Source: Cytophagales bacterium
GTDB lineage: Bacteria > Bacteroidota > Bacteroidia > Cytophagales > Spirosomataceae
Length of the DNA: 64,000 nt
Assembly: GCA_024742395.1 (NCBI GenBank)
Contig: JANSYO010000017.1
Span: 1 to 64,000 of the forward strand
Direction: 5' to 3'
This document shows, one piece after another, positions 2 to 24,772 of the stretch. The notes under the pieces were generated by a model. It was not told the DNA's origin. It made no database searches and saw only the letters and a list, made by a program, of their open reading frames with translations. Position numbers and translations under genes: made by a program. The number at the start of each line of letters is the position of its first letter. Position 1 is the first letter of the stretch.

Positions 2-961
2 GCGGCTCCACCTGCACTCATGCGGGCTCTGGCTATCGAAATATTAAAAAGAGGGCTGGTAGCCACCTGGTGGACCAACATACGTTTTGAGAAAAATTTC
101 AGTGCCGATCTTTGCCGGCTCCTGAAGGCCTCAGGCTGTATCGCCGTTTCTGGTGGGCTGGAGGTAGCCTCAGACCGACTTCTGGCTCTGATTGACAAAG
201 GAGTAACGGTAGAACAAGTGGCTCAGGTGACACGTAACTTTACAGAAGCCGGCATTATGGTACATTCTTATCTGATGTACGGATACCCTACGCAAACTAT
301 TCAAGAGACCATTGACAGCCTGGAAATGGTGCGACAGATGTTTGAACTGGGTATTCTTCAATCAGGTTTCTGGCATCAGTTTGCCCTAACGGCACATAGC
401 CCTGTAGGTTTAGACCCTGATGCTTTTGGCGTCATTCCGGAGATCAAAGAAATTGGCTTTGCTCATAATGACATCGCCTTTAAAGACCGAACCGGTATTG
501 ATCATGATCAATTTAGTTTTGGCCTGAAAAAATCACTCTTCAATTATATGCATGGTTTGTGTTTCGATTTCCCTCTGCAAGAATGGTTTGATTTTAAAAT
601 ACCTAAACCCACAGTACCAAAGAACCTGATTGTCAAAGCTTTGGAAAACGACAACGACTTTATGATGAAACCCACTGCCAAGCTCCTCTGGCTGGGGAGC
701 GAGCCAATTATAAGCGTGAAGAACACAAAGAAACTCCTGTTCACTTTTCACACCAAAACCGATGTCGCCGATATTGAATTTAAAACCGCTGATGGCCATT
801 GGCTCGAAAGCATTTTACCAAGACTATCGCCAGAGACAGCAAGCCTTAGTACATTACAAGAGCTAAAGAAAGACTACGAAACCAAACAGGAGAACTTTGA
901 ACTATTCTGGTATTCAAAACCCATTCAGCAAATGCGAGATCTTGGACTTTTAGCCGTTTAA
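2..961 (+). CDS. Radical SAM protein, C-terminal part (5' end outside window)
   Basis: The frame is open from the first bases of the window (AAPPALM precedes the first internal Met at 20), so this is the 3' part of a longer gene. The visible residues look like the C-terminal half of a radical SAM enzyme of the cobalamin-binding type: a barrel strand with GGLEVASDRLL, then the YLMYGYPTQT strand/loop with the common 'YGxP' turn, and a following helix with TIDSLEMVRQMF. The N-terminal B12 domain and the CxxxCxxC cluster would lie upstream and cannot be checked. It ends 5 bases before the convergent LytTR gene. Substrate unknown; the family methylates or rearranges varied substrates. Confidence 0.75.
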   Translation, partial: AAPPALMRALAIEILKRGLVATWWTNIRFEKNFSADLCRLLKASGCIAVSGGLEVASDRLLALIDKGVTVEQVAQVTRNFTEAGIMVHSYLMYGYPTQTIQETIDSLEMVRQMFELGILQSGFWHQFALTAHSPVGLDPDAFGVIPEIKEIGFAHNDIAFKDRTGIDHDQFSFGLKKSLFNYMHGLCFDFPLQEWFDFKIPKPTVPKNLIVKALENDNDFMMKPTAKLLWLGSEPIISVKNTKKLLFTFHTKTDVADIEFKTADGHWLESILPRLSPETASLSTLQELKKDYETKQENFELFWYSKPIQQMRDLGLLAV

Positions 962-1316: not shown

Positions 1317-1360
1317 GACTTCCGATTTTTAGTTAACCAAATTTCATGAAATTACCGTCC

Positions 1361-1400
1361 TGAAAATATCGTGTATTTGGGGATATTTTGACCGTAAAAT
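1361..1400 (-). promoter_or_regulatory. 40-bp upstream element, copy 1
   Basis: On the minus strand this block begins ATTTTACGGTC, holds a CCCC run and ends ACACGATATTTTCA. It matches the block at 5916-5955 at 33 of 40 positions by hand alignment without gaps. Both copies lie exactly 44 bp upstream of an ATG. ACGGT/ATGGT and ACGAT recur inside each copy 23 bases apart, near the spacing of paired LytTR half-sites (about two helical turns), so a LytTR operator or promoter is a reasonable but unproven reading. Confidence 0.5.
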
Positions 1401-1461
1401 ATAATACTGAGATTTAAACTCAATTAGTACTCAGACGGGCTTCACTTTTTAGGCTATGGAT

Positions 1462-4400
1462 TTACTCCGGGCAGCCACCGGTTTCAGCCATAAATACTGT
1501 TCCTGAGTCTGCTTCAAAGCCAGGCAGAAGTTCTACGAATTGGCCTAAATACTGAACTTTAGCTTCCTCAGATACTTTGTTTGAAGCTTGCAGATCCTGA
1601 CTCGTTATTTTTGTCAGAGTAACTTTTTCTGTATCATCAACCGGGCTGATAAGTACAAGACCATTCTCACAGAAAGAAAGCTTCATTAAGAAATTTGGAT
1701 CGGTTTTTAACCCAATTATATCATAAAACACATTTTTATTGAACAAGGGCGTACCTTCGAGGTCTAGCTCACCAATGATATGTAAAGCGTTTTTGCTAAA
1801 TGTAGCCTCTCTAAATTCTGTCCTTTTTTCACTACCTGTACTCTGAGCCCAATTTACCTCTCCATTAGTGGCTATAGAAGCCACAAAAAAATCCTCTGAG
1901 GTATATTCTGGCTCTATTTCAAATTCTGTAGCAGACCCTGGTTTTGAAACCAGCAGAGTATCATTAAAATCACACACCCAAAGGACTTCAGATCCATTCA
2001 GAAATACACGAACTTTTTCTACTTCTCCAGTATTCACCTCTCCATTAGACTGAGCGAATGTAACGTTTTGGAAATCGCCTGTTAAGGAGAACTTCGCCAA
2101 AAAACCAGCGTAATAATCCGTTAATGTATATTCATGCATTCCTGCCACATAAGGATGGCTAAAATTAACGGTAGTTACATCAAAAATTGAACTGACATAA
2201 ATGCCTGAACTACCTGCTGCAATGTCAAATGAATTATTGGTATATGCTCCTCCCACTGTTCTTGACCATTGGTATTGGCCACCTGAAGAAAATTCTGCCA
2301 AAAACAATTCTGAACCATTATTTACAGCCTGTAATGTGTTTGATGATGAAGAAAATGGGGTGTTAAAATTCATCTGATCAGTAAAAGTCCCAAATATGTA
2401 AACAGTATCATTGTAAGTATCCAAAACTCCATAGCCGTCATAATTATCTCCTCCCATTCTTCTGCTCCAAATCAAACCTCCATTAAAGTCAAACTTGCAC
2501 AGAAACAGATCAGTAGAACCATTTTGTGAAGTTAAACTATTCTGTGAAGGATTGGCTGGTGTTCCTAAGTCTATGGTTCCGTCAAACGAACCGAGTACAT
2601 ACAGATAGTTTCCTTCGAGCGACAAATCTTTAGCCCTATCTGTATTGCTTCCTCCCATTCTTTTTGACCAAACAAGATTTCCATCGCTAGCATTTAAACA
2701 AAGAAGGAAGGCATCGTCGTAGCCAGTAGAAATTAAGCTATTACCGGTCAAATCTTCTGGATGATTAAAGCCAATAGTATCTTTAAAATACCCGCTGACA
2801 AAAACGTAATTGTCATTCGCCGCAATACTTATCCATGTCATAGAAGTTGAAGAATAAACGGGTGTAATCCATTTGGTTTTGCCCTGCTTATTTAATTTCA
2901 TAATCATTTGGCCATATTCTGAGCCGGTCAACAGAACACCGTTATTTGAAATTTCTTTTGAGAAATCACCTGCCAGATATATGTTACCTGATTCATCAGA
3001 GCCTACCACATCTAAATTGGTATTTCCTCCGGTATCTCCCCCATCAGTAAAAGCATAATCAATTTGTGGAGTCATACTACCTTTTGCACTGAAACCCAGT
3101 GAAGTAACATGAGCGGCAATCACATTGTAATCAAAGTGAGAAGGAGTATTAAAGTTAGCATAGTTAAAAAAGTTACCAGAGAGAGAAAAGACTGAACCGG
3201 AAACAGACAAGTCAGTAAGGTCATCTTCAAAATAGCCTCCTGCTCTTAATGATTGAAGATGGTTTCCGTTGCTTTCAAAACGAGACAAAAACACATCTGA
3301 ATCTCCATCGGAGATAAGTGAATCTGAAGAACTAAAACGAGCTGTACCTTCATAAAAGCCTCCTACAAAAACTTCTCCGTCTCCAAATGCCAAAGCTGTG
3401 CCTAAGATATCTTCAAGTCCACTGATAGATTCATACCAGTTAACTAAACCCGCCTGACTGGTAAAAGACAAAATAAAGGCATCTCTATTCCCTTCAGAGA
3501 TCAGTTTATTCTGTACAAGATGAAGCTTACCTACTTTTAAAGTATCTTCAAAAATTCCGGTAGCAAAGACCGAAGAAGCTGAACAATCCAGACCAAAGAG
3601 TCTGTCTCTCAGAGTACTTCCTGCTTTTTGAATCCAGCCCAATGTGCCAGAATGATCAAATTTGACCACAAAAACATCCCGGTCTCCTAATGACTGAAAA
3701 GTATTCGAAAATTGCGACGAAGGTGTATTAAAGTCTGCCAAGTCACTAAAACTTCCTCCAAGAAATACACCACCTGCATTTGAACCCACAGCTTTTCCTT
3801 CATCATATCCTGTACCCCCTGCTCTTTTTAGCCAGGCTAATGAGCCACTGGTAAACATTTTCATTAAAAAAGCGTCGTCTCCACCTTTTGATACCAGCTC
3901 ATTCGTTCCAAAAGATGATGGTGTATTAAAGTTAGAAGTAAGTCTGAAGTTACCACCTATATAAATCGCCTCGTCTTCATATACAATATCATTAGCTTCA
4001 TCATCTTGTGTACCTCCTCCTCTTCTTATCCAATCCGGCAAACCTGTTTCGGCGTCTAATTTCAGCACAAAAACATCTCTTCCACCGGCAGAGGTGAGTT
4101 CGAAAAAACCAGCTATATAAGGATAACTAAAGTTACATATCCCCTCAAAAAAACCGGTAACATAAAGCTTTCCCTCAGCAAAAGTTAGTTTCCGGGCTTC
4201 TTCATCAAGTGTACCGCCGAAAGTTCTAACCCATAACACATTGCCCAGTGCATCTTGTTTGACAATGTACATATCCTTTTGACCACGAGAGGAATAACTT
4301 GCACCAGCTATTAATAAATCATTTTCAAAATAGCCAACAGTGTACACATTCCCAATCTCGTCAAGGCAGGTACCCAGTGCCCGATTAGGATTTATTGAAG

Positions 4401-5871
4401 CTGCTTCTCCTACAGTTTCTTGCCAATTAAAAGTATAATCCTCCGTAAAGCCGGAAACAAATATTCTCCTTCCTTCCATTTCGAAATGATTTTTACTTTC
4501 GTGGTACGGTTGGTTAAAATTAACAGCATCTGAGAAAGAGCCAGAGAGAGTAATTTTATTATTGAATGAGTGGAGTACATCACTTGTAACAGAGCTGGTC
4601 TCTGTACCAAGTCTGATATAATTTATAATATTACCAGACGAACCAAATTTCATAATCACTTTGTTATCCTCTGGTTCAAAATACAGAGTATGCTTGTCTT
4701 CAGGGTTCTTATTTGAAACAACCAATGAGTCTCCTGACTTCTTAATATCAATAAAACAAGAACCAGATAATGTGGTCAGACCTGCCACATCATCAAATTC
4801 ACCCGAGCCAATTTGTCTGAGCCAATTGAAGGTGGAAGATGTATCATATTGTGCCAAAAAGACATCAAAAGAACCATAAGATATAAGGCTATCTACCTTT
4901 ACGTTATCATATACCCTGAGTGTATCGTTAAATATCCCGGTTAAGTAAATGTTGTTATCTTCTATTTCAATTGATGAGAAATTTGCTATTGTATTATTAG
5001 TAATAAGCACCTTAGCCCAGATCAATTCACCAGTGTCTTGCCTTACTTTACTTACTACCCGGCCAAACTGCTCATTTTCCTTTGTGACAATATCAGACTT
5101 TGAAGGCTGAATAATTTTTAGAGAATCCTGCTGAAAGCCTAATGTATAAATGTATTCAGCATCTGAATCAAGGCTTACCATATAGGTATATCCGCTTCCA
5201 GCGGTATAATGATGATGCCACTGATAGGTTCCCGTAAGGTCATAACTTACCAGATAACCGTCTCTAACTTTCTCACCTGTTATTATCACACTACTTCCCG
5301 AAGGTTCAAAATCTAATTGATCTCCTTCATTTAAACGGCCCAAAAGAAAGATACCCTCAGCAGTTACCTCCATGTCACTCAAGACATCATAAGCCGGATT
5401 CCCAAACGTTTTGACCCAGTCAAAAATGCCTAAAGTATCACATGCTGCAATAAAGTTGTCACTATTTCCTACCGCTTCAGGAAATTGCACTTTTGTATTA
5501 TCAGAAGATATTAGTTCGGAGGCTCCATTCCAAGTGCCTGATATGTAAATCACCCCATTAAATAGCTCAATTTCTAAGACTGAACTCGAGTTTTGTGAGG
5601 AGAGCTTATTAAACCAAAGTAAATCTCCATTCTCATCATATTTGGCCAAAAAACCATTGGAATGAGCGTTTTCGCTTTCAACTATTTCTCCTCCAAACTC
5701 TGTAGTTCTGTAGTTACCTACAGTATAGGTGTTACCATATTCATCTAAATAGGTATCATAAATATATTCTGTGCCATCTATGCCGTCAAAAGTCTTTACA
5801 TACTCAGGGTAGAACTGTGCAGAAAGTTGAGAACAAATGAAAAAAGATAGTAGTAGTATATACGCTTTCAT
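1462..5871 (-). CDS. Very large exported SBBP/beta-propeller repeat protein with 3-coathanger-type tail
   Basis: A 1469-residue protein with an N-terminal signal peptide (about residues 1-18, ending SQLSAQ). The body is a long series of about 50-70-residue repeats of the SBBP/beta-propeller type: each has YVxGxF..., a NFNTPSS-like or 'L.S.G..D.F' strand, 'FLxKFD', 'G.L.W.RRAGG' and 'D...D'. The last roughly 80 residues carry LQASNKVSEEAKVQYLG and ELLPGFEADSGTVFMAETGGC, the pattern of the 3-coathanger-stack tail also seen in the proteins at 10.7 and 12.9 kb. Likely cell-surface or secreted; the ligand is unknown. A lone LytTR gene follows it. It is the largest gene in the window. Confidence 0.8.
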   Translation of the reverse strand: MKAYILLLSFFICSQLSAQFYPEYVKTFDGIDGTEYIYDTYLDEYGNTYTVGNYRTTEFGGEIVESENAHSNGFLAKYDENGDLLWFNKLSSQNSSSVLEIELFNGVIYISGTWNGASELISSDNTKVQFPEAVGNSDNFIAACDTLGIFDWVKTFGNPAYDVLSDMEVTAEGIFLLGRLNEGDQLDFEPSGSSVIITGEKVRDGYLVSYDLTGTYQWHHHYTAGSGYTYMVSLDSDAEYIYTLGFQQDSLKIIQPSKSDIVTKENEQFGRVVSKVRQDTGELIWAKVLITNNTIANFSSIEIEDNNIYLTGIFNDTLRVYDNVKVDSLISYGSFDVFLAQYDTSSTFNWLRQIGSGEFDDVAGLTTLSGSCFIDIKKSGDSLVVSNKNPEDKHTLYFEPEDNKVIMKFGSSGNIINYIRLGTETSSVTSDVLHSFNNKITLSGSFSDAVNFNQPYHESKNHFEMEGRRIFVSGFTEDYTFNWQETVGEAASINPNRALGTCLDEIGNVYTVGYFENDLLIAGASYSSRGQKDMYIVKQDALGNVLWVRTFGGTLDEEARKLTFAEGKLYVTGFFEGICNFSYPYIAGFFELTSAGGRDVFVLKLDAETGLPDWIRRGGGTQDDEANDIVYEDEAIYIGGNFRLTSNFNTPSSFGTNELVSKGGDDAFLMKMFTSGSLAWLKRAGGTGYDEGKAVGSNAGGVFLGGSFSDLADFNTPSSQFSNTFQSLGDRDVFVVKFDHSGTLGWIQKAGSTLRDRLFGLDCSASSVFATGIFEDTLKVGKLHLVQNKLISEGNRDAFILSFTSQAGLVNWYESISGLEDILGTALAFGDGEVFVGGFYEGTARFSSSDSLISDGDSDVFLSRFESNGNHLQSLRAGGYFEDDLTDLSVSGSVFSLSGNFFNYANFNTPSHFDYNVIAAHVTSLGFSAKGSMTPQIDYAFTDGGDTGGNTNLDVVGSDESGNIYLAGDFSKEISNNGVLLTGSEYGQMIMKLNKQGKTKWITPVYSSTSMTWISIAANDNYVFVSGYFKDTIGFNHPEDLTGNSLISTGYDDAFLLCLNASDGNLVWSKRMGGSNTDRAKDLSLEGNYLYVLGSFDGTIDLGTPANPSQNSLTSQNGSTDLFLCKFDFNGGLIWSRRMGGDNYDGYGVLDTYNDTVYIFGTFTDQMNFNTPFSSSSNTLQAVNNGSELFLAEFSSGGQYQWSRTVGGAYTNNSFDIAAGSSGIYVSSIFDVTTVNFSHPYVAGMHEYTLTDYYAGFLAKFSLTGDFQNVTFAQSNGEVNTGEVEKVRVFLNGSEVLWVCDFNDTLLVSKPGSATEFEIEPEYTSEDFFVASIATNGEVNWAQSTGSEKRTEFREATFSKNALHIIGELDLEGTPLFNKNVFYDIIGLKTDPNFLMKLSFCENGLVLISPVDDTEKVTLTKITSQDLQASNKVSEEAKVQYLGQFVELLPGFEADSGTVFMAETGGCPE

Positions 5872-5915
5872 AGGAGTCGATTTTTCTGAACATAAAGTTC
5901 TTTGATCTTAGTCCT

Positions 5916-5955
5916 TGAAAACATCGTGTAAATGGGGAAATTCAGACCATAAAAT
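5916..5955 (-). promoter_or_regulatory. 40-bp upstream element, copy 2
   Basis: Minus-strand ATTTTATGGTC, a CCCC run, then ACACGATGTTTTCA. It pairs with the element at 1361-1400 (33/40 identical, no gaps) and lies 44 bp from the ATG of the 1469-residue gene, the same distance as copy 1 from the LytTR ATG. Probably a common promoter or operator. Confidence 0.5.
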
Positions 5956-6118: not shown

Positions 6119-6398
6119 TTAATAGTAAAGAACTGTTTGCCAGCCCCATGAATCTATGTGAGATCATGGCTGGTATCTCCACATATTCATCAGCTTTTAA
6201 ATTGACCGTTTTACCGGTATGCTCAGAGTAAAGGATTTCACCCGAAACGCAAACCAACAAAGCAGGCACTTTGGTAATATGATCTTTCATTTCTTCATTC
6301 TCTTTTACCTGAATAGAAATAACGGAGCCCTCTTCACCTTTGAAAAAAGGTTTTAAAGAGAGTGCCTTTTCGGCTGAATGCAATGCGGCTAACTTCAT
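6111..6398 (-). CDS. Small cupin-like protein
   Basis: A 95-residue single-domain protein with cupin features: 'EEMKDHITKVPALLVCVSGEILY' as the first barrel motif and DEYVEIPAMISHRFMGL as the second. H40 (in DHITKVP) and H81 (in ISHRF) are candidate metal ligands, but the first motif is degenerate (no clear HxH). It starts 4 bases after the stop of the DUF3365 gene, so the two are probably co-transcribed. Such small cupins often sense or buffer a ligand; no substrate can be named. No signal peptide, so cytoplasmic. Confidence 0.6.
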   Translation of the reverse strand: MKLAALHSAEKALSLKPFFKGEEGSVISIQVKENEEMKDHITKVPALLVCVSGEILYSEHTGKTVNLKADEYVEIPAMISHRFMGLANSSLLLIK

Positions 6399-12526: not shown

Positions 12527-12844
12527 TTATCGCGACTTAATTAATATTCTAACCAATTCATCTTTCTTCCGTCTGGAAACGAGAGCCAGATGATTATTTT
12601 TTAATTCTACTTCGTAGTTTTCACAGCATTGCACCTCTCTGATATTTATCAGATACTTTTTATGTGACCGATAAAAATTAAATGGTCTAAATCGCTCTTC
12701 CAGTCTTTTCAAAGTGGTAGCAACCGTTATTTTAGAACCGTTTTTGAGGTGAACATGTGAATAGTTAGCGTCACCTTCAAAAAGGATCACGTTCCCTGGC
12801 TTCACTGCTCTTCTTCCTCCTACATTGATTTCTTGATTTTTCAT
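12527..12844 (-). CDS. Stand-alone LytTR DNA-binding regulator
   Basis: 105 residues, almost wholly a LytTR domain: GDANYSHVHLKNGSKITVATTLKRLEERF in two blocks, then FYRSHKKYLINIREV and a C-terminal SRRKKDEL. It has no receiver domain. It is about the size of the LytTR protein at 966-1316 and shares the same T-T-x-LxERF and YR-(S/T) motifs. It lies between two genes for exported proteins with similar tails and only 2 bases from the metalloprotease gene. It may control this cluster or its own operon. Confidence 0.85.
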   Translation of the reverse strand: MKNQEINVGGRRAVKPGNVILFEGDANYSHVHLKNGSKITVATTLKRLEERFRPFNFYRSHKKYLINIREVQCCENYEVELKNNHLALVSRRKKDELVRILIKSR

Positions 12845-19647: not shown

Positions 19648-21648
19648 TCACTGACCCAAAGTTTCTAAGACTGCACCTGTCTCTATTTCAACCATTGAGC
19701 CTGTCTGAAAATCAAGCTTATTGAGTTGAACTTTATAGCCGGCATCTAATTTCATAGCATTATTTATAATGACATTTTCGCAAACACCAGGTATTAATTG
19801 ACGTTCCCAGTTTGACCTGTCAAAAAAATCGGTTGATGCACCATTGGCTGTTACTGATTTGTAAGAATCACATTGGGGTGCAATTTTTCTATTAAGCTCT
19901 AATCGGCGGTTACATCCAGAAACGCCGTCTACCTGAAAATAATACCTATCTGTCATATTCACATTTGGTTTGGGCGTCCAGAAATAGACAAGCGGAAAAG
20001 AAACAGGATGCTCCTCAAAGCTGGCTATTGAGCTACCGGAATTTAATGTTTTCGTTGTAAAGAGGCTATCAGGCATGCTTATGTTAAATCCTCGGGTTCT
20101 TACTGGAAAATAGTTTTTAATTCCTTCTGAGGCTAGTCCTATCACATCCTCGTAAATGAGACCGGAGTTTGTGGCATCATCGTATTCTACGTTATGGTTT
20201 CTGTCATAGATAATACCTTCATTAGCAAAATTGCCAGCAGTATTGACCACCGGCTTATCCAGGGCAATTAGTCCACAATTCCTATTCAATAATTCTCCTC
20301 CATTAAACTTTAAACTGGCTCCTGCATTTCTCAGGTCAATGATCCCGAAATTTGAAGTAGTAGAAAGCGGCTCTTGCTGCCAGGACACACTGTCTGTACT
20401 GGAAATTGTTATTTTGCCATTGTTTAAGAATTCTCCTTCTATTTTGGCTGCAGGCCAATGAGTATTGTAGTTTTTATTGAATGCTCCCACAATGTTAATT
20501 TGCCCGGAATTGGAGTTTTCAAAATAGCCTGTTTCGGCTATGGTTATACTACTGCTTTTTGCATCGGCAATAGATACTATTCCATCGTTAATAAAAGTAC
20601 TGCTGATTCCGAAACCGGATGAAAAGTGATTTAAATGAAGTGTAATATTTCCATAGTTGTGAAAAGATGCCGATACTGAAATTTTATAACCTGTGCTGGC
20701 AATTGCAGGGCAACTGTCATCGGTCTCAATTCTTCCTCCTATCTCATTGACAAATAAAGACGCATTAAAAGTAGCGATGCTTCTGAGTCTGGTAGGACAG
20801 AGTTTTATTAGTCCAAAATTCTGAAAATAGGAGCCTTGTTCAAAAATTCGGAATTGGTCTTCCTCCTGACCCTTACAGAGTATAGTACCTGAATTGCCAA
20901 AATTACCTCTGCTGTCTATAACAGAATTGACATTGATAATTCCTGAAGAATAATTATTGAAGAAAGCCGCGTCTTCTGCAAAGTTTTTAATGGCACTATT
21001 GGCGGCATTTCTCAGATAAAGAGACCCGTAATTGTCAAAATTAGCCTCAGTATAATTGAATATACTCTCACTAATGCCTGAGCCTCCAATATCAATCCCC
21101 CCTTCATTTAAAACCCGGGCATTGTTATGAATCCCTCTGTTACACTGCTTATTCCTGATTATCAAAGCTCCGTTATTTTTAATATGCAACAGTCCAGAAT
21201 TGACAACCCCGTTTTGTCCGGAGCCACCATCTACATCGATCTGCCCTCCCGACTCGATAACGAGCCTACTGCTTTCATCAATAGCCATGACACTTTGAGA
21301 GTTTATTATGTAATACTCTCCTGAAACATACAAGGAACTACTCACCAATGTAAGGGCATAAAACGGATTTGTATTGCGGGAACCGTTGGTTTGAAAAAGT
21401 GCAGTGCTGCTAATATGTAAAGCCCCGTCTACAATCCTTAAAGAATTCACACTATGCAAAGAAGACATGCTAACAGAATCTGCGATAATTACTACATCCT
21501 GCATGGTGGTTGGCTTTTGACCCGTATTCCAGTTTAGTGGATCTTCCCAAGTTATACCATCACCATTGCCTGTCCATGTGACGGTAACTGCTGAGGCAAT
21601 CGGAAGACCCGATAAATAAAAACACATTAAGCAGATTACTTTTTTCAT
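19648..21648 (-). CDS. Exported beta-helix-like surface protein (paralogue of the 49.9-kb gene)
   Basis: 666 residues from the ATG at 21648, which begins the signal peptide MKKVICLMCFYLSGLPIASA. After the signal, WTGNGDGITWEDPLNWNTG resembles an autotransporter/adhesin start domain. The body is rich in N-x-G-x-(I/L)-x-(I/L) units ('FNNYSSGIINVNSV', 'LLHIKNNGALIIRN') that suggest a parallel beta-helix. The C-terminus (DFFDRSNWERQLIPGVCENV, later METGAVLE-like ETGAVLETLGQ) matches the end of the 1021-residue protein at 49.9 kb. It is followed upstream by a lipoprotein gene and a divergent two-component operon. Likely cell-surface. Confidence 0.75.
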   Translation of the reverse strand: MKKVICLMCFYLSGLPIASAVTVTWTGNGDGITWEDPLNWNTGQKPTTMQDVVIIADSVSMSSLHSVNSLRIVDGALHISSTALFQTNGSRNTNPFYALTLVSSSLYVSGEYYIINSQSVMAIDESSRLVIESGGQIDVDGGSGQNGVVNSGLLHIKNNGALIIRNKQCNRGIHNNARVLNEGGIDIGGSGISESIFNYTEANFDNYGSLYLRNAANSAIKNFAEDAAFFNNYSSGIINVNSVIDSRGNFGNSGTILCKGQEEDQFRIFEQGSYFQNFGLIKLCPTRLRSIATFNASLFVNEIGGRIETDDSCPAIASTGYKISVSASFHNYGNITLHLNHFSSGFGISSTFINDGIVSIADAKSSSITIAETGYFENSNSGQINIVGAFNKNYNTHWPAAKIEGEFLNNGKITISSTDSVSWQQEPLSTTSNFGIIDLRNAGASLKFNGGELLNRNCGLIALDKPVVNTAGNFANEGIIYDRNHNVEYDDATNSGLIYEDVIGLASEGIKNYFPVRTRGFNISMPDSLFTTKTLNSGSSIASFEEHPVSFPLVYFWTPKPNVNMTDRYYFQVDGVSGCNRRLELNRKIAPQCDSYKSVTANGASTDFFDRSNWERQLIPGVCENVIINNAMKLDAGYKVQLNKLDFQTGSMVEIETGAVLETLGQ

Positions 21649-21722
21649 TCTTAAATATGAAGGGATATGTAGCAAAAGGCTGCTAAGCCCCTTCTTGCTT
21701 ATAAGAACTGAACTATTAATCA

Positions 21723-22172
21723 TTAATTGGATCGTGAAGCGTATATAATAAGGACACTTGAAGGATCAGAGTCATTGAATTTGACCCTTAGCTCACCGTT
21801 TGAGAAACCGATTGAATTGCCATCAGCATCCTGTCCGCCGATTTCACCAGAACTATTTTTTGACAGCGAAATGGAAGGCACCGTACTCGTAGATTTTTTG
21901 TCGAGACCAAAATCAGAGGCCGTTTGTATAAAGGTGAAAAGGACACTAATTTCCGTTTCTGAAAGTTTAGAAACCGAGAGGGTACCGGTGGCTGTTATGC
22001 CATTGACAGTGGCAGGCAATGTCACTTTGGTAGTTCCTGCCAAATAATAGTCAACCGTGTATTCACCCATAATTTGCTCAGCCAGTGGCGGCTCAGGGTC
22101 AGTTTTCTCACAGGAAGATATAAAGATGATCAAAAAGAGAAAGAGCAGGAAAGGTAATTGAAGATTTTTCAT
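21723..22172 (-). CDS. Small lipoprotein, function unknown
   Basis: 149 residues with a lipoprotein signal (LIIFISSC, cysteine about residue 21). The mature part has EQIMGEYTVDYYLAG and TLSVSKLSETEISVLFTF, a small beta-rich domain of the kind found in Bacteroidota lipocalin-like or META-like lipoproteins; I cannot assign a family with confidence. It lies 74 bases upstream of the surface-protein gene, on the same strand, and is divergent from the response regulator at 22345. Confidence 0.65.
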   Translation of the reverse strand: MKNLQLPFLLFLFLIIFISSCEKTDPEPPLAEQIMGEYTVDYYLAGTTKVTLPATVNGITATGTLSVSKLSETEISVLFTFIQTASDFGLDKKSTSTVPSISLSKNSSGEIGGQDADGNSIGFSNGELRVKFNDSDPSSVLIIYASRSN

Positions 22173-22313
22173 GACTGCATGTTTTACAAATGAATTGAAA
22201 GCTCAATTTCGCCTTTACGCAGACGCCACACCATCCTGTAATCAGGTAATTTTAAGTCATATACTCTATTAAATGATCTGCTTATCAATTGGATTTCATC
22301 CGGCCAATCGTTT

Positions 22314-22344: not shown

Positions 22345-22989
22345 GTGATAAAAATTGCTATAGTAGATGACCATGAAATTTTTCTCAAAGGCCTTGAAAA
22401 GCTATTGAGAACAGAAAAGGACATAAAAATTATGGCTACTTATTCTGACGGACAATCCCTTCTTCGGGCTCTGCCAGCCTTAAGTTTAGATATTTTACTC
22501 CTGGATGTCCAGTTGCCAGATATAGAAGCAGAAGATTTACTCAAACAAATAAGGCATCTCAAGCCACAGCTTCCTATTCTCTATCTAACCATGATTAGAG
22601 GAAGCAGAACCATGAAAAAACTCAAAAAACATGCTATTCAAGGCTATATTCTTAAAGATGCGGCTATAGAAGAACTGCAAGCGGGCATTCGTTCTGTGGC
22701 TGATGGTATTCCCTATTACAGTCAGGATATCAGTCTTGAAGATGTAAATCAAGAGACCAATACTGTTACCACACCTTCCAATAAATTACTAAGCCTTTTG
22801 TCTCCAAGAGAGTTTGAGATACTAAAGCTGGTATGTCTGGAGTACAGCTCAGCCGAAATAGGTGAAAAGCTCTTTTTAAGTACCGGAACGGTGGATACAC
22901 ACCGACGAAATATACTGGTGAAGATTGGTGCCAGCAATACAGTAGGTATGGTGAAGTTTGCCTTGCAAAACGGAATTCTGGATGAATAA
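22345..22989 (+). CDS. NarL-type response regulator with GTG start
   Basis: 214 residues. Receiver: D8/D9 pocket, phospho-acceptor D54 in ILLLDVQLPDIE, K in GYILKDAAI. LuxR-type HTH: SPREFEILKLVCLEYSSAEI, then TVDTHRRNILVKIGASN. The start is a GTG because no ATG occurs in frame upstream and the receiver begins at once with KIAIVDDHE. The next gene, its probable kinase, begins inside this one (ATGAATAA overlap of 8 bases), so the two are translationally coupled. An inverted repeat abuts the start codon. Confidence 0.9.
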   Translation: MIKIAIVDDHEIFLKGLEKLLRTEKDIKIMATYSDGQSLLRALPALSLDILLLDVQLPDIEAEDLLKQIRHLKPQLPILYLTMIRGSRTMKKLKKHAIQGYILKDAAIEELQAGIRSVADGIPYYSQDISLEDVNQETNTVTTPSNKLLSLLSPREFEILKLVCLEYSSAEIGEKLFLSTGTVDTHRRNILVKIGASNTVGMVKFALQNGILDE

Positions 22990-24772
22990 GCTAAGTACTC
23001 TCCTCCTCTTTCTGTTGTTCAGTCATTTTTCAAGTGGCCAAAAAGCTGATGTAACCTGGGATACTTACATCAAGAATCTTCCTATCTACAATTCTTCCAA
23101 TCTTGATTCTCTTCCGCATTGGAGCCAAAAATTGAGGAGCTCAGGCAATCAAAGAGCCATAGCCTTTGCCGAAAGAGTAGATGGATTTTACTTTGATTAT
23201 CTGGGAGAAAAAAGTAAATCATTAGAAAGCTTTTTGACGTTTGCAAAAGCTGTTCAGGCCTTAAACAGCCCGAACGATGAACTCATTGCTATCTCTGATC
23301 TGGCCTATGTTTATCTGACTACAAACCGACATTCTGAAGCCAAAAAGGTGATTCTTTCTTTTCTTTCAAAGTCTCCGATCGATGAATTGGAGCAGAAGAG
23401 TCTGGCGGTGATCTATAATAATCTGGGGCAATGCTACCGACAAGAGAATAAAATTGACTCCGCCTTAATTTCCTATAACAAATCACTTGATATCAAAAAT
23501 GCTCTTGGAGATTCTACGGGAATTGCCAATGTGAAAATTAACCTCACTTCTTTATACATTCAGCAAGGTAATTATCAGCAGGCCCTTATATTCAGTAAGG
23601 AGAACATCGCATATTTTACTGACAAGATTCAATCTGACTTATGGTATAATGTGGTAAACAAAGCCGGTGCCCTAAATGGCTTGGGGCGTAAATCAGAAGC
23701 AAAAACTGAACTTCTCAATGCATTGAAACTGGCTAATCAACTGAATTCAAAATCTCTGATTCAGCAATCTCATGAACAGCTGGCCGCTATCTATAATGAG
23801 CTTGGTGAGTACCAAGAGGCGTACAAGGAAATTATCCTGAGCAATCAGTTAAAAAGTGAAATTCTAAATGAGCAAACCAGTAACCGCATAGCCGAGCTTC
23901 AGGAAGCCTACAATGCCGAAGAAAGGGAAAAAGAAAACCAATTGCTTTCTGCCCGACTACAAAGTCAGAAAAACAGACAATTGGCGTTATTGATTGGTAT
24001 TATTGCTTTTGCCAGTCTGGCTGCTATCGTTGGCTTCTCCTACCATAAAAACAAAAAGAAAAACAGCCTGATTCAGGCACAGAATAAAAAACTAACGCAG
24101 CTTAATGCGGAGAAAAACCATCTGCTTTCAGTAGTCTCTCATGACCTTAGCAGCCCCTTTTCCGCAATTAAATTATGGGTACAAAACCTTTCCAAAAATG
24201 ATAAAGGAAGTTTACAGGAGGTAGAGGAAATGGTTAGTAAAACAGCCGATTTTGGTTTAAATGCTATTCGAGCCTTGCTCACTTTTGATAAGCAGGAAGC
24301 ACATGAAGTCCATTTAGAAAATACAGACTTGGCTAAACTCACAGCCTCCTTAATCAAACGATTTGAACCTTTGGCTAAAGCGAAGGGTATCAATTTAAAA
24401 GCTCAGATTGAACAAGACCGGGAGCATATTTTGACAGATAAAAAAATGCTGTTCAGGGCCTTGGAGAATCTACTCTCTAACGCCATTAAATATTCAGAGG
24501 ATAAAACCGAAGTATGGTATCGTACTTATGAAAAAGACGGGTATGTGCATTTTGAGATAAGAGATGAAGGGAAAGGTATATCAGAAGTAAGGCAGAAATA
24601 TCTCTTCGAGAAATACAGCACAGCTGGAAACCAACCTACAGGGGGTGAGCAGAGTCACGGCTTAGGTCTTTACATTGTAAAACGAATAGCTGAAGAACTC
24701 GGAGCAAAACTAATGGTTCAAAGTGAAGAAGGGAAAGGCAGTTGCTTCACTTTCTCACTAAAAGCAGATTAA
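22982..24772 (+). CDS. TPR sensor histidine kinase (HisKA type)
   Basis: 596 residues from the ATG at 22982, which overlaps the regulator stop; it opens a signal peptide (LSTLLLFLLFSHFSSGQ). An extracytoplasmic TPR region (residues about 60-290, e.g. NNLGQCYRQENKIDSALISY) leads to one membrane helix (about 334-354), a coiled coil, a HisKA box (LLSVVSHDLSSPFSAIKLWV, H387) and an HATPase domain (ALENLLSNAIKYSED, DEGKGIS, HGLGLYIVKRIAEEL). Kinase and NarL-type regulator in one operon; HisKA kinases usually pair with OmpR-type regulators, so the pairing is somewhat unusual. A likely target is the adjacent divergent lipoprotein/surface-protein operon. Confidence 0.85.
   Translation: MNKLSTLLLFLLFSHFSSGQKADVTWDTYIKNLPIYNSSNLDSLPHWSQKLRSSGNQRAIAFAERVDGFYFDYLGEKSKSLESFLTFAKAVQALNSPNDELIAISDLAYVYLTTNRHSEAKKVILSFLSKSPIDELEQKSLAVIYNNLGQCYRQENKIDSALISYNKSLDIKNALGDSTGIANVKINLTSLYIQQGNYQQALIFSKENIAYFTDKIQSDLWYNVVNKAGALNGLGRKSEAKTELLNALKLANQLNSKSLIQQSHEQLAAIYNELGEYQEAYKEIILSNQLKSEILNEQTSNRIAELQEAYNAEEREKENQLLSARLQSQKNRQLALLIGIIAFASLAAIVGFSYHKNKKKNSLIQAQNKKLTQLNAEKNHLLSVVSHDLSSPFSAIKLWVQNLSKNDKGSLQEVEEMVSKTADFGLNAIRALLTFDKQEAHEVHLENTDLAKLTASLIKRFEPLAKAKGINLKAQIEQDREHILTDKKMLFRALENLLSNAIKYSEDKTEVWYRTYEKDGYVHFEIRDEGKGISEVRQKYLFEKYSTAGNQPTGGEQSHGLGLYIVKRIAEELGAKLMVQSEEGKGSCFTFSLKAD

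Follow-up and report, generated by a model that had tools for sequence, protein, structure and literature searches.

A conserved promoter element shared by a lone LytTR gene and a giant surface-protein gene is probably read by a NarL/RcsB-type response regulator

In Porphyromonas gingivalis, FimS and FimR form a pair of a TPR kinase and a NarL-type regulator that controls surface fimbriae. For RcsB a structure with DNA is available, in which, according to the accessible part of PMC5829831, K180 and S184 alone make direct sequence-specific base contacts. LytTR sites are direct repeats of 9 bp each, separated by a gap given as 11–13 bp in the accessible part of PMC6193735. Here we describe a locus that bears on all three, at the start of a stretch of 64,000 nucleotides from a Cytophagales bacterium; we call this whole stretch the window.

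The original prediction had paired two 40-bp blocks, 33/40 identical without gaps and each placed 44 bp 5′ of an ATG on the minus strand, one before a lone LytTR gene and the other before the gene of a giant exported protein. The identity and both distances proved exact (Table 1). Among the 1431 pairs formed by the 54 upstream regions of the window (150 bp each), this pair ranked first at 33/40; the runner-up reached 28, and the mean best 40-mer identity was 21.5 (sd 1.4). A degenerate pattern derived from the two copies matched those two alone in the window and gave zero matches in 100 shuffles, a circular result in that the pattern was made from the same two copies. The giant protein scores 49.4 bits against GCX_COOH (cut-off 26) and matches the SBBP model below its cut-off.

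Further into the window lies a pair of genes for a response regulator (RR) and a histidine kinase, RR-A/HK-A, and contig C403 of the same genome encodes a second pair, RR-B/HK-B. The two genes are adjacent in both pairs; both regulators exceed the PF00072 and PF00196 cut-offs, and both kinases exceed that of HATPase_c. C403 ends, directly after RR-B/HK-B, with the 5′ part of the gene whose 3′ part opens the window, and G021 has the same order. From this gene order, in which no letters are joined, we infer that C403 adjoins the window start.

Table 1 Features of the window discussed in the text
Feature	Position	Strand	Remark
3′ part of a gene, presumably radical-SAM-like	2-961	+	5′ part at end of contig C403
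Lone LytTR gene, 116 aa, PF04397	966-1316	-	
-7-like promoter box GAAATTTG	1338-1345	-	22 nt past core of copy 1
Class-B element copy 1, core GGTCAAAATATCCCCAAATACACGAT	1361-1400	-	5′ of LytTR gene
Exported SBBP-repeat protein, 1469 aa, GCX_COOH C-terminal domain	1462-5871	-	
-7-like promoter box GAACTTTA	5893-5900	-	22 nt past core of copy 2
Class-B element copy 2	5916-5955	-	5′ of giant gene
691-aa protein, signal-peptide-like start	19648-21723	-	Next gene after the lipoprotein gene, same presumed operon; without Pfam/NCBIfam match
Predicted lipoprotein, 149 aa	21723-22172	-	3′ of class-A element; without Pfam match
Weak -7-like box GAAATTGA	22203-22210	-	22 nt past class-A element; scored as a miss
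Class-A variant element TTACCTGATTACAGGATG	22222-22266	-	Absent from the original prediction
RR-A, NarL-type response regulator (receiver + GerE), helix STGTVDTHRRNIL	22345-22989	+	
HK-A, TPR histidine kinase, best NCBIfam model FimS	22958-24772	+	160.1 bits, cut-off 600

We refer to the sequence shared by the two blocks as class B, and to its variants, introduced below, as classes A and K. The class-B profile, trained on 11 sites of which the window genome supplied three, was run against the whole 5.54-Mb genome, a search that the original prediction had proposed. Three copies (C366:5915, C366:1359 and C372:20617) scored 41–43 bits and the next match 16.2 bits; the element therefore does not recur at random. 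The third copy precedes the gene of a 228-aa, Hcp-like protein with a signal-peptide-like start, which exceeds the NCBIfam TssD/Hcp cut-off (71.7 bits vs 58.9). All 11 profile sites align free of gaps, with GG, CCC, A and TACACGAT as the invariant positions. On sequence grounds, the short element 5′ of the LytTR and giant genes is a real, conserved promoter site, and we found no account of it or of its regulon in the open-access literature. Of 21 candidate sites, 10 were kept and 11 dropped (nine like CGGTTCGCCC/CGGCTCACCC, plus G040 and G044); none of the 11 dropped sites is among the class-B profile matches at E ≤ 1e-4 in 222 genomes of the family.

The primary-sigma consensus of Bacteroidetes at -7 is TAnnTTTG (accessible part of PMC7366714). 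Our full table comprises 38 sites (24 class B, 11 class A and 3 class K), and at 34 of them an xAnnTTTG-like box, in which the first T of the consensus is mostly substituted, begins 22 nt downstream of the core; the four misses read GTACTTTG, GTACTTCG, TAAATTAC and GAAATTGA. Seven of the 38 sites had been found with a pattern that contains the box (G031-A beside RR-A, G050-A, G019-A, G109, G084, G148 and Prado074) and five by eye (two in G014, G047a, G047b and G022-A on C3). Of the 21 class-B sites that the profile alone identified, 18 have the box at 22 nt. When one base of play was allowed, none of 5000 mononucleotide shuffles of the first 10 non-redundant sites attained the register score; at one site of 11, that of a 1191-aa gene in G022, other places in the same stretch score equal or better for the box. 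The end of the core lies 51 nt from the ATG in both window copies and in the LytTR copy of G021, and 35, 48, 55, 72, 97 and 97 nt in other copies, counts that omit one G021 copy whose first ATG is an unlikely start and one G022 copy whose start is unassigned. The conserved landmark is the 22-nt distance from core to box, not the distance to the ATG. With a -7-like box 22 nt downstream at most sites, the element looks like an activator site directly 5′ of a promoter. It would thus lie outside the transcript, in keeping with the original prediction.

Across the 222 family genomes, a class-B profile search with strict filters, which may lose weak sites, gave 19 sites in 10 genomes and six genera; a scan of loci added two class-B sites in G034. 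The genes under class-B sites are mostly LytTR or exported-protein genes. A LytTR gene lies directly downstream in the window genome (G000), G021 and G093, and LytTR-containing operons follow the element in G019, G034 and four genomes of genus g31; a divergent RR gene lies on the other side of the element in g31 and G093. SBBP/GCX_COOH giants lie under it in G000, G022 and G034, and the further targets are other exported proteins. Two sites have no convincing target: one on C3 of G019 leads to a 45-codon frame alone, and the weakest site of G034 has no -7 box and is ~300 bp from its gene. The joint arrangement of giant and LytTR gene recurs outside the window genome. In G014 an SBBP giant and a LytTR gene share a class-K element (L150 4188-9021), an independent repeat of the observation with another sequence. 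In G034 the giant carries the element 4.87 Mb from the LytTR operon along a single contig (~0.6 Mb if circular), so that co-regulation there would be no by-product of linkage. The original prediction had proposed a regulon in which the LytTR protein controls its own gene and the giant; these recurrences support a shared regulon of the two genes, and it is the role of LytTR as the binder that the evidence below speaks against.

Every genome with the element encodes an RR of one NarL/RcsB-type subfamily, together with a kinase. RR matches (E ≤ 1e-42) occur in 17 of the 222 genomes, with G028 (38% identity) outside the subfamily. All 10 class-B profile genomes, four of them absent from profile training, fall within the 12 whose RR has a serine at a particular position of its recognition helix, and none among the other 210. 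The nine genomes matched by the class-A profile (E ≤ 0.001) are exactly those with a glycine-helix RR, and the remaining 213 gave no match; since all nine had served to train this profile, its informative part is the absence elsewhere. In the congeneric G045 we found neither RR nor element and the closest LytTR match is 36% identical, an absence compatible with the RR and with LytTR as the reader. A fixed core-plus-box pattern run on 80 named loci gave 11 matches, four of them convincing (L209, which is new, and L211–L213 from genomes already in the set). Spacing variants gave fewer matches than 22 nt, but 19 nt still gave 10 against 12, which makes this survey uninformative for distant RRs. 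A LytTR protein search among named genomes gave no match. In Jiulongibacter sp. Ww143 (L221 5057-5682) a subfamily RR gene is broken by stops and has neither a convincing element nor an adjacent kinase, which looks like a module in the course of loss.

RR and element vary together. RR-A loci carry the variant AAAAWTACCTATTTACAGTATG at the same 22-nt spacing, 5′ of exported genes, and G014 has a third, TATCCTGTTTTACCCTATG, also at 22 nt and common to its giant and LytTR gene. The recognition-helix residue before TV/TI is Ser with CACGAT-type elements, Gly with CAG[TG]AT and Lys with CCCTAT. The triplet after the C of TTAC is ACG in 21 of the 24 sites of the Ser class (CCG in two, ATG in one), AGT in 8 of 11 (AGG in three) of the Gly class, and CCT in 3/3 of the Lys class; no single element base separates the three. 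Exactly one of 209 columns in an alignment of 24 RRs separates classes A, B and K perfectly, these classes having been defined after the first loci had been seen, and HMMER aligns the residue in that column with RcsB K180. None of 103 LytTR columns (17 LytTRs) does so; the class-A LytTR of G019 is absent from that alignment, an extra row that cannot create a separating column. When the helix is left out of the RR tree, three switches of the Ser/Gly/Lys label are required, and the class of the element switches in step. The sister RRs (95/89) of G109 (Gly, CAGGAT) and G047a (Ser, CACGAT) differ by one residue in the helix, and their triplets, AGG and ACG, by one base. All five RRs inspected after the rule had been noticed fell in the expected class: G084 (Gly, CAGTAT), G148 (Ser, CCCGAT), G047b (Lys, CCCTAT), G047a (Ser, CACGAT) and Prado074 (Ser, CATGAT), with G148 and Prado074 fitting theirs with one base changed. 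The element of G047a was absent from the first 18 kb and was found 11 kb from the RR.

Several observations count against the RR as reader. The class-B RR of G019 is at least 53 kb from its elements; a class-A site in G022 lies beside a class-B RR gene, the only explanation being that RR-A acts in trans; a class-A site of G031 (C9) is unlinked; and nothing in this reading accounts for the left ACGGT block that most class-B sites carry. On balance the case for the RR as binder of the element is good as far as sequence evidence goes, and a single recognition-helix residue appears to set which variant is read. A separate site in G019 (C26:238647, L208) is a hybrid, ACGGTCAAAAAATACCTATTTACATTATG, with the core CATTAT and GAACTTTG at 22 nt; it belongs to no class and is outside the 38.

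We give a probability of roughly three in four to the reading in which the 40-bp block serves as the upstream activating site for a promoter under RR-B and the TPR kinase HK-B, with the LytTR gene as a target, a reading drawn from the elements, their spacing, their distribution and their co-variation with the RR. Once phosphorylated, RR-B would recognize the core TATCCC[CT]ATTTACACGATG, protecting the predicted stretch TCCC[CT]ATTTACACGAT, with RNA polymerase engaging the -7-like box 22 nt past the core. The predicted regulon of the window genome has three promoters: one drives the lone LytTR gene, one the 1469-aa SBBP/GCX_COOH surface protein and one the exported Hcp-like protein. Since its gene is among these three, LytTR would itself be a target and probably acts as a second-tier regulator. 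The paralogous RR-A/HK-A (22345-24772) would use the variant element at 22222-22266 before another exported operon.

It is unlikely, in our estimate, that LytTR binds the ACGGT/ACGAT repeats and activates its own gene and the giant while the RR merely co-travels. This explanation was initially strong, with a LytTR near the element in every element genome, and was demoted by RR-A loci that carry the variants, some without a lone LytTR. It draws on proximity (a lone LytTR within ~4 kb of an element in 10/10 class-B genomes, directly under it in the three named above), on the single clade (97/93) formed by the LytTRs of G000, G021, G019 and G034, and on the typical autoregulation of LytTR Regulatory Systems through repeats just 5′ of the promoter described in the accessible part of PMC6193735. 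A lone LytTR also lies in or near the module at 18 of 24 RR loci (the 17 of the column comparison and the class-A locus of G019); RR and LytTR are thus largely co-inherited, so that much of the co-occurrence fits either regulator and keeps the LytTR explanation alive. The other six loci are the class-A loci of G000, G031, G050, G062 and G084 and the locus of G148. The lone LytTR of the window genome's class-A locus is 9.4 kb off, in another operon, and stretches of 18–30 kb showed none at the class-A loci of G031, G050 and G062 (one genus) and G084 or at the class-B-like locus of G148 (three genera), all of which carry variants. The class-A locus of G019 was at one point taken as LytTR-free as well, which a lone LytTR at C3:14419-14790, ~7 kb downstream of the element on the same strand, rules out.

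The sequences of proteins and sites weigh further against LytTR as the binder. In a tree of 44 LytTR domains those associated with an element fall in three separate groups, so that the class-B element accompanies three LytTR clades but one RR helix residue, and the differences between variants follow a single base-contact residue of the RR but none of the LytTR columns. The spacing that the original prediction had likened to that of LytTR half-sites, 23 bp from start to start, leaves 14 bp between 9-bp repeats, outside the 11–13 bp quoted above. The left block itself (GG[TC], strict register) occurs in 16/24 class-B sites, 0/11 of class A and 0/3 of class K, and is thus missing from 8/24 and 14/14, respectively; two more class-B sites, in G137 and G093, show near forms. 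The original prediction had also pointed to LytTR paralogues, and the other lone LytTR genes of the genome turned out to be without the element (18 vs 230 other upstream regions, p = 0.15); a search of the genome for a motif shared by LytTR upstream regions in general was negative. Taken together, the comparative evidence points to the neighbouring two-component RR as the reader, with the LytTR gene among the genes it controls, and the case illustrates how the product of a LytTR gene under a site may be mistaken for that site's binder.

The uneven left block invites a combined scheme, which we hold to be improbable, in which the RR occupies the invariant right part and LytTR the left ACGGT block, forming a feed-forward loop at class-B promoters. 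Its presence in class-B sites and in none of the 14 class-A and class-K sites marks the block as a separable part, and G034 keeps it in two LytTR-operon copies and has lost it in three others. Yet G022, G031, G050 and G062 retain the block though their LytTRs belong to other clades, and it could equally be a second RR site.

A recent duplication or mobile repeat without regulatory role, which a short, near-identical sequence at few places might suggest, is very improbable, as spacer and flanks diverge while the 22-nt distance stays fixed, and six genera retain the core 5′ of different genes.

Lone LytTR genes are common in the window genome, where 21 of 41 LytTR matches lie in frames of at most 160 codons. 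Many stand beside exported or GCX_COOH-like genes, which makes lone LytTRs in surface-protein cassettes a wider theme: those at L010, L011, L016, L017, L018, L019, L021, L022, L023, L025 and window 12527-12844 lie directly before, after or between exported-looking genes, and several such neighbours end like GCX_COOH proteins. On C363 (L022, 10616-16855, plus strand) one frame fuses a LytTR domain (residues 11–98 from the ATG) to a signal-peptide-like segment and continues into a protein of ~1950 aa that ends in a type IX sorting tail (PF18962, 27.3 bits vs 27), possibly a LytTR/surface-protein fusion or else a start without an ATG. On C414 (L023) two neighbouring lone LytTR genes, at 6126 and 7969 on the plus strand, share an upstream element of their own, GAAAACCTYACCATCTAYACATT, which is present exactly twice in the genome (≤ 3 mismatches) and is followed each time by a -7-like box; its likeness to the class-B element is not significant.

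If RR-B and its relatives read the element, the lone LytTR is probably an RR target and would be a second-tier regulator. We see slightly better than an even chance that the RRs illustrate a natural specificity switch, in which the residue at the RcsB K180 position (Gly, Ser or Lys) insulates paralogous kinase-regulator pairs within one cell through pair-specific three-base variants of a similar, rigidly spaced promoter element, each pair driving surface proteins plus, often, a LytTR second-tier regulator. The scheme predicts a one-residue switch of specificity that can be checked by a single-residue swap, and for giant GCX_COOH/SBBP surface proteins it names a regulon, a regulator and a target site that can be tested.

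How, then, does the system compare with those already described? Like the direct-repeat sites of LytTR Regulatory Systems and AgrA, the element is a site just 5′ of a promoter with a LytTR gene beneath it. It differs from them in its gap of 14 bp, as against the range in the accessible part of PMC6193735, and in a left repeat that is not general. A LytTR Regulatory System would also have an adjacent membrane inhibitor gene, which the LytTR gene at 966-1316 lacks, being flanked by the convergent gene at 2-961 (+) after it and the giant-protein gene before it. FimS is the best NCBIfam model for HK-A (160.1 bits) and HK-B (156.4 bits), both far under its cut-off of 600, and the targets here, unlike those of FimS/FimR, comprise a LytTR gene and exported proteins, those with SBBP/GCX_COOH among them. 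The RRs consist, as RcsB does, of a receiver and a GerE helix-turn-helix; RcsB is the best PDB match (E 1.2e-20), and the residue that discriminates the classes aligns with K180, a direct base contact in the part of PMC5829831 cited above. RcsB itself has Lys at this position and another site, whereas the Bacteroidetes RRs have Ser, Gly or Lys and sites 22 nt from a -7-like box. The kinship to FimS/FimR would be a resemblance below cut-off; as far as sequence comparison tells, the system is not a LytTR Regulatory System and works like a NarL/RcsB-type regulon for surface proteins.
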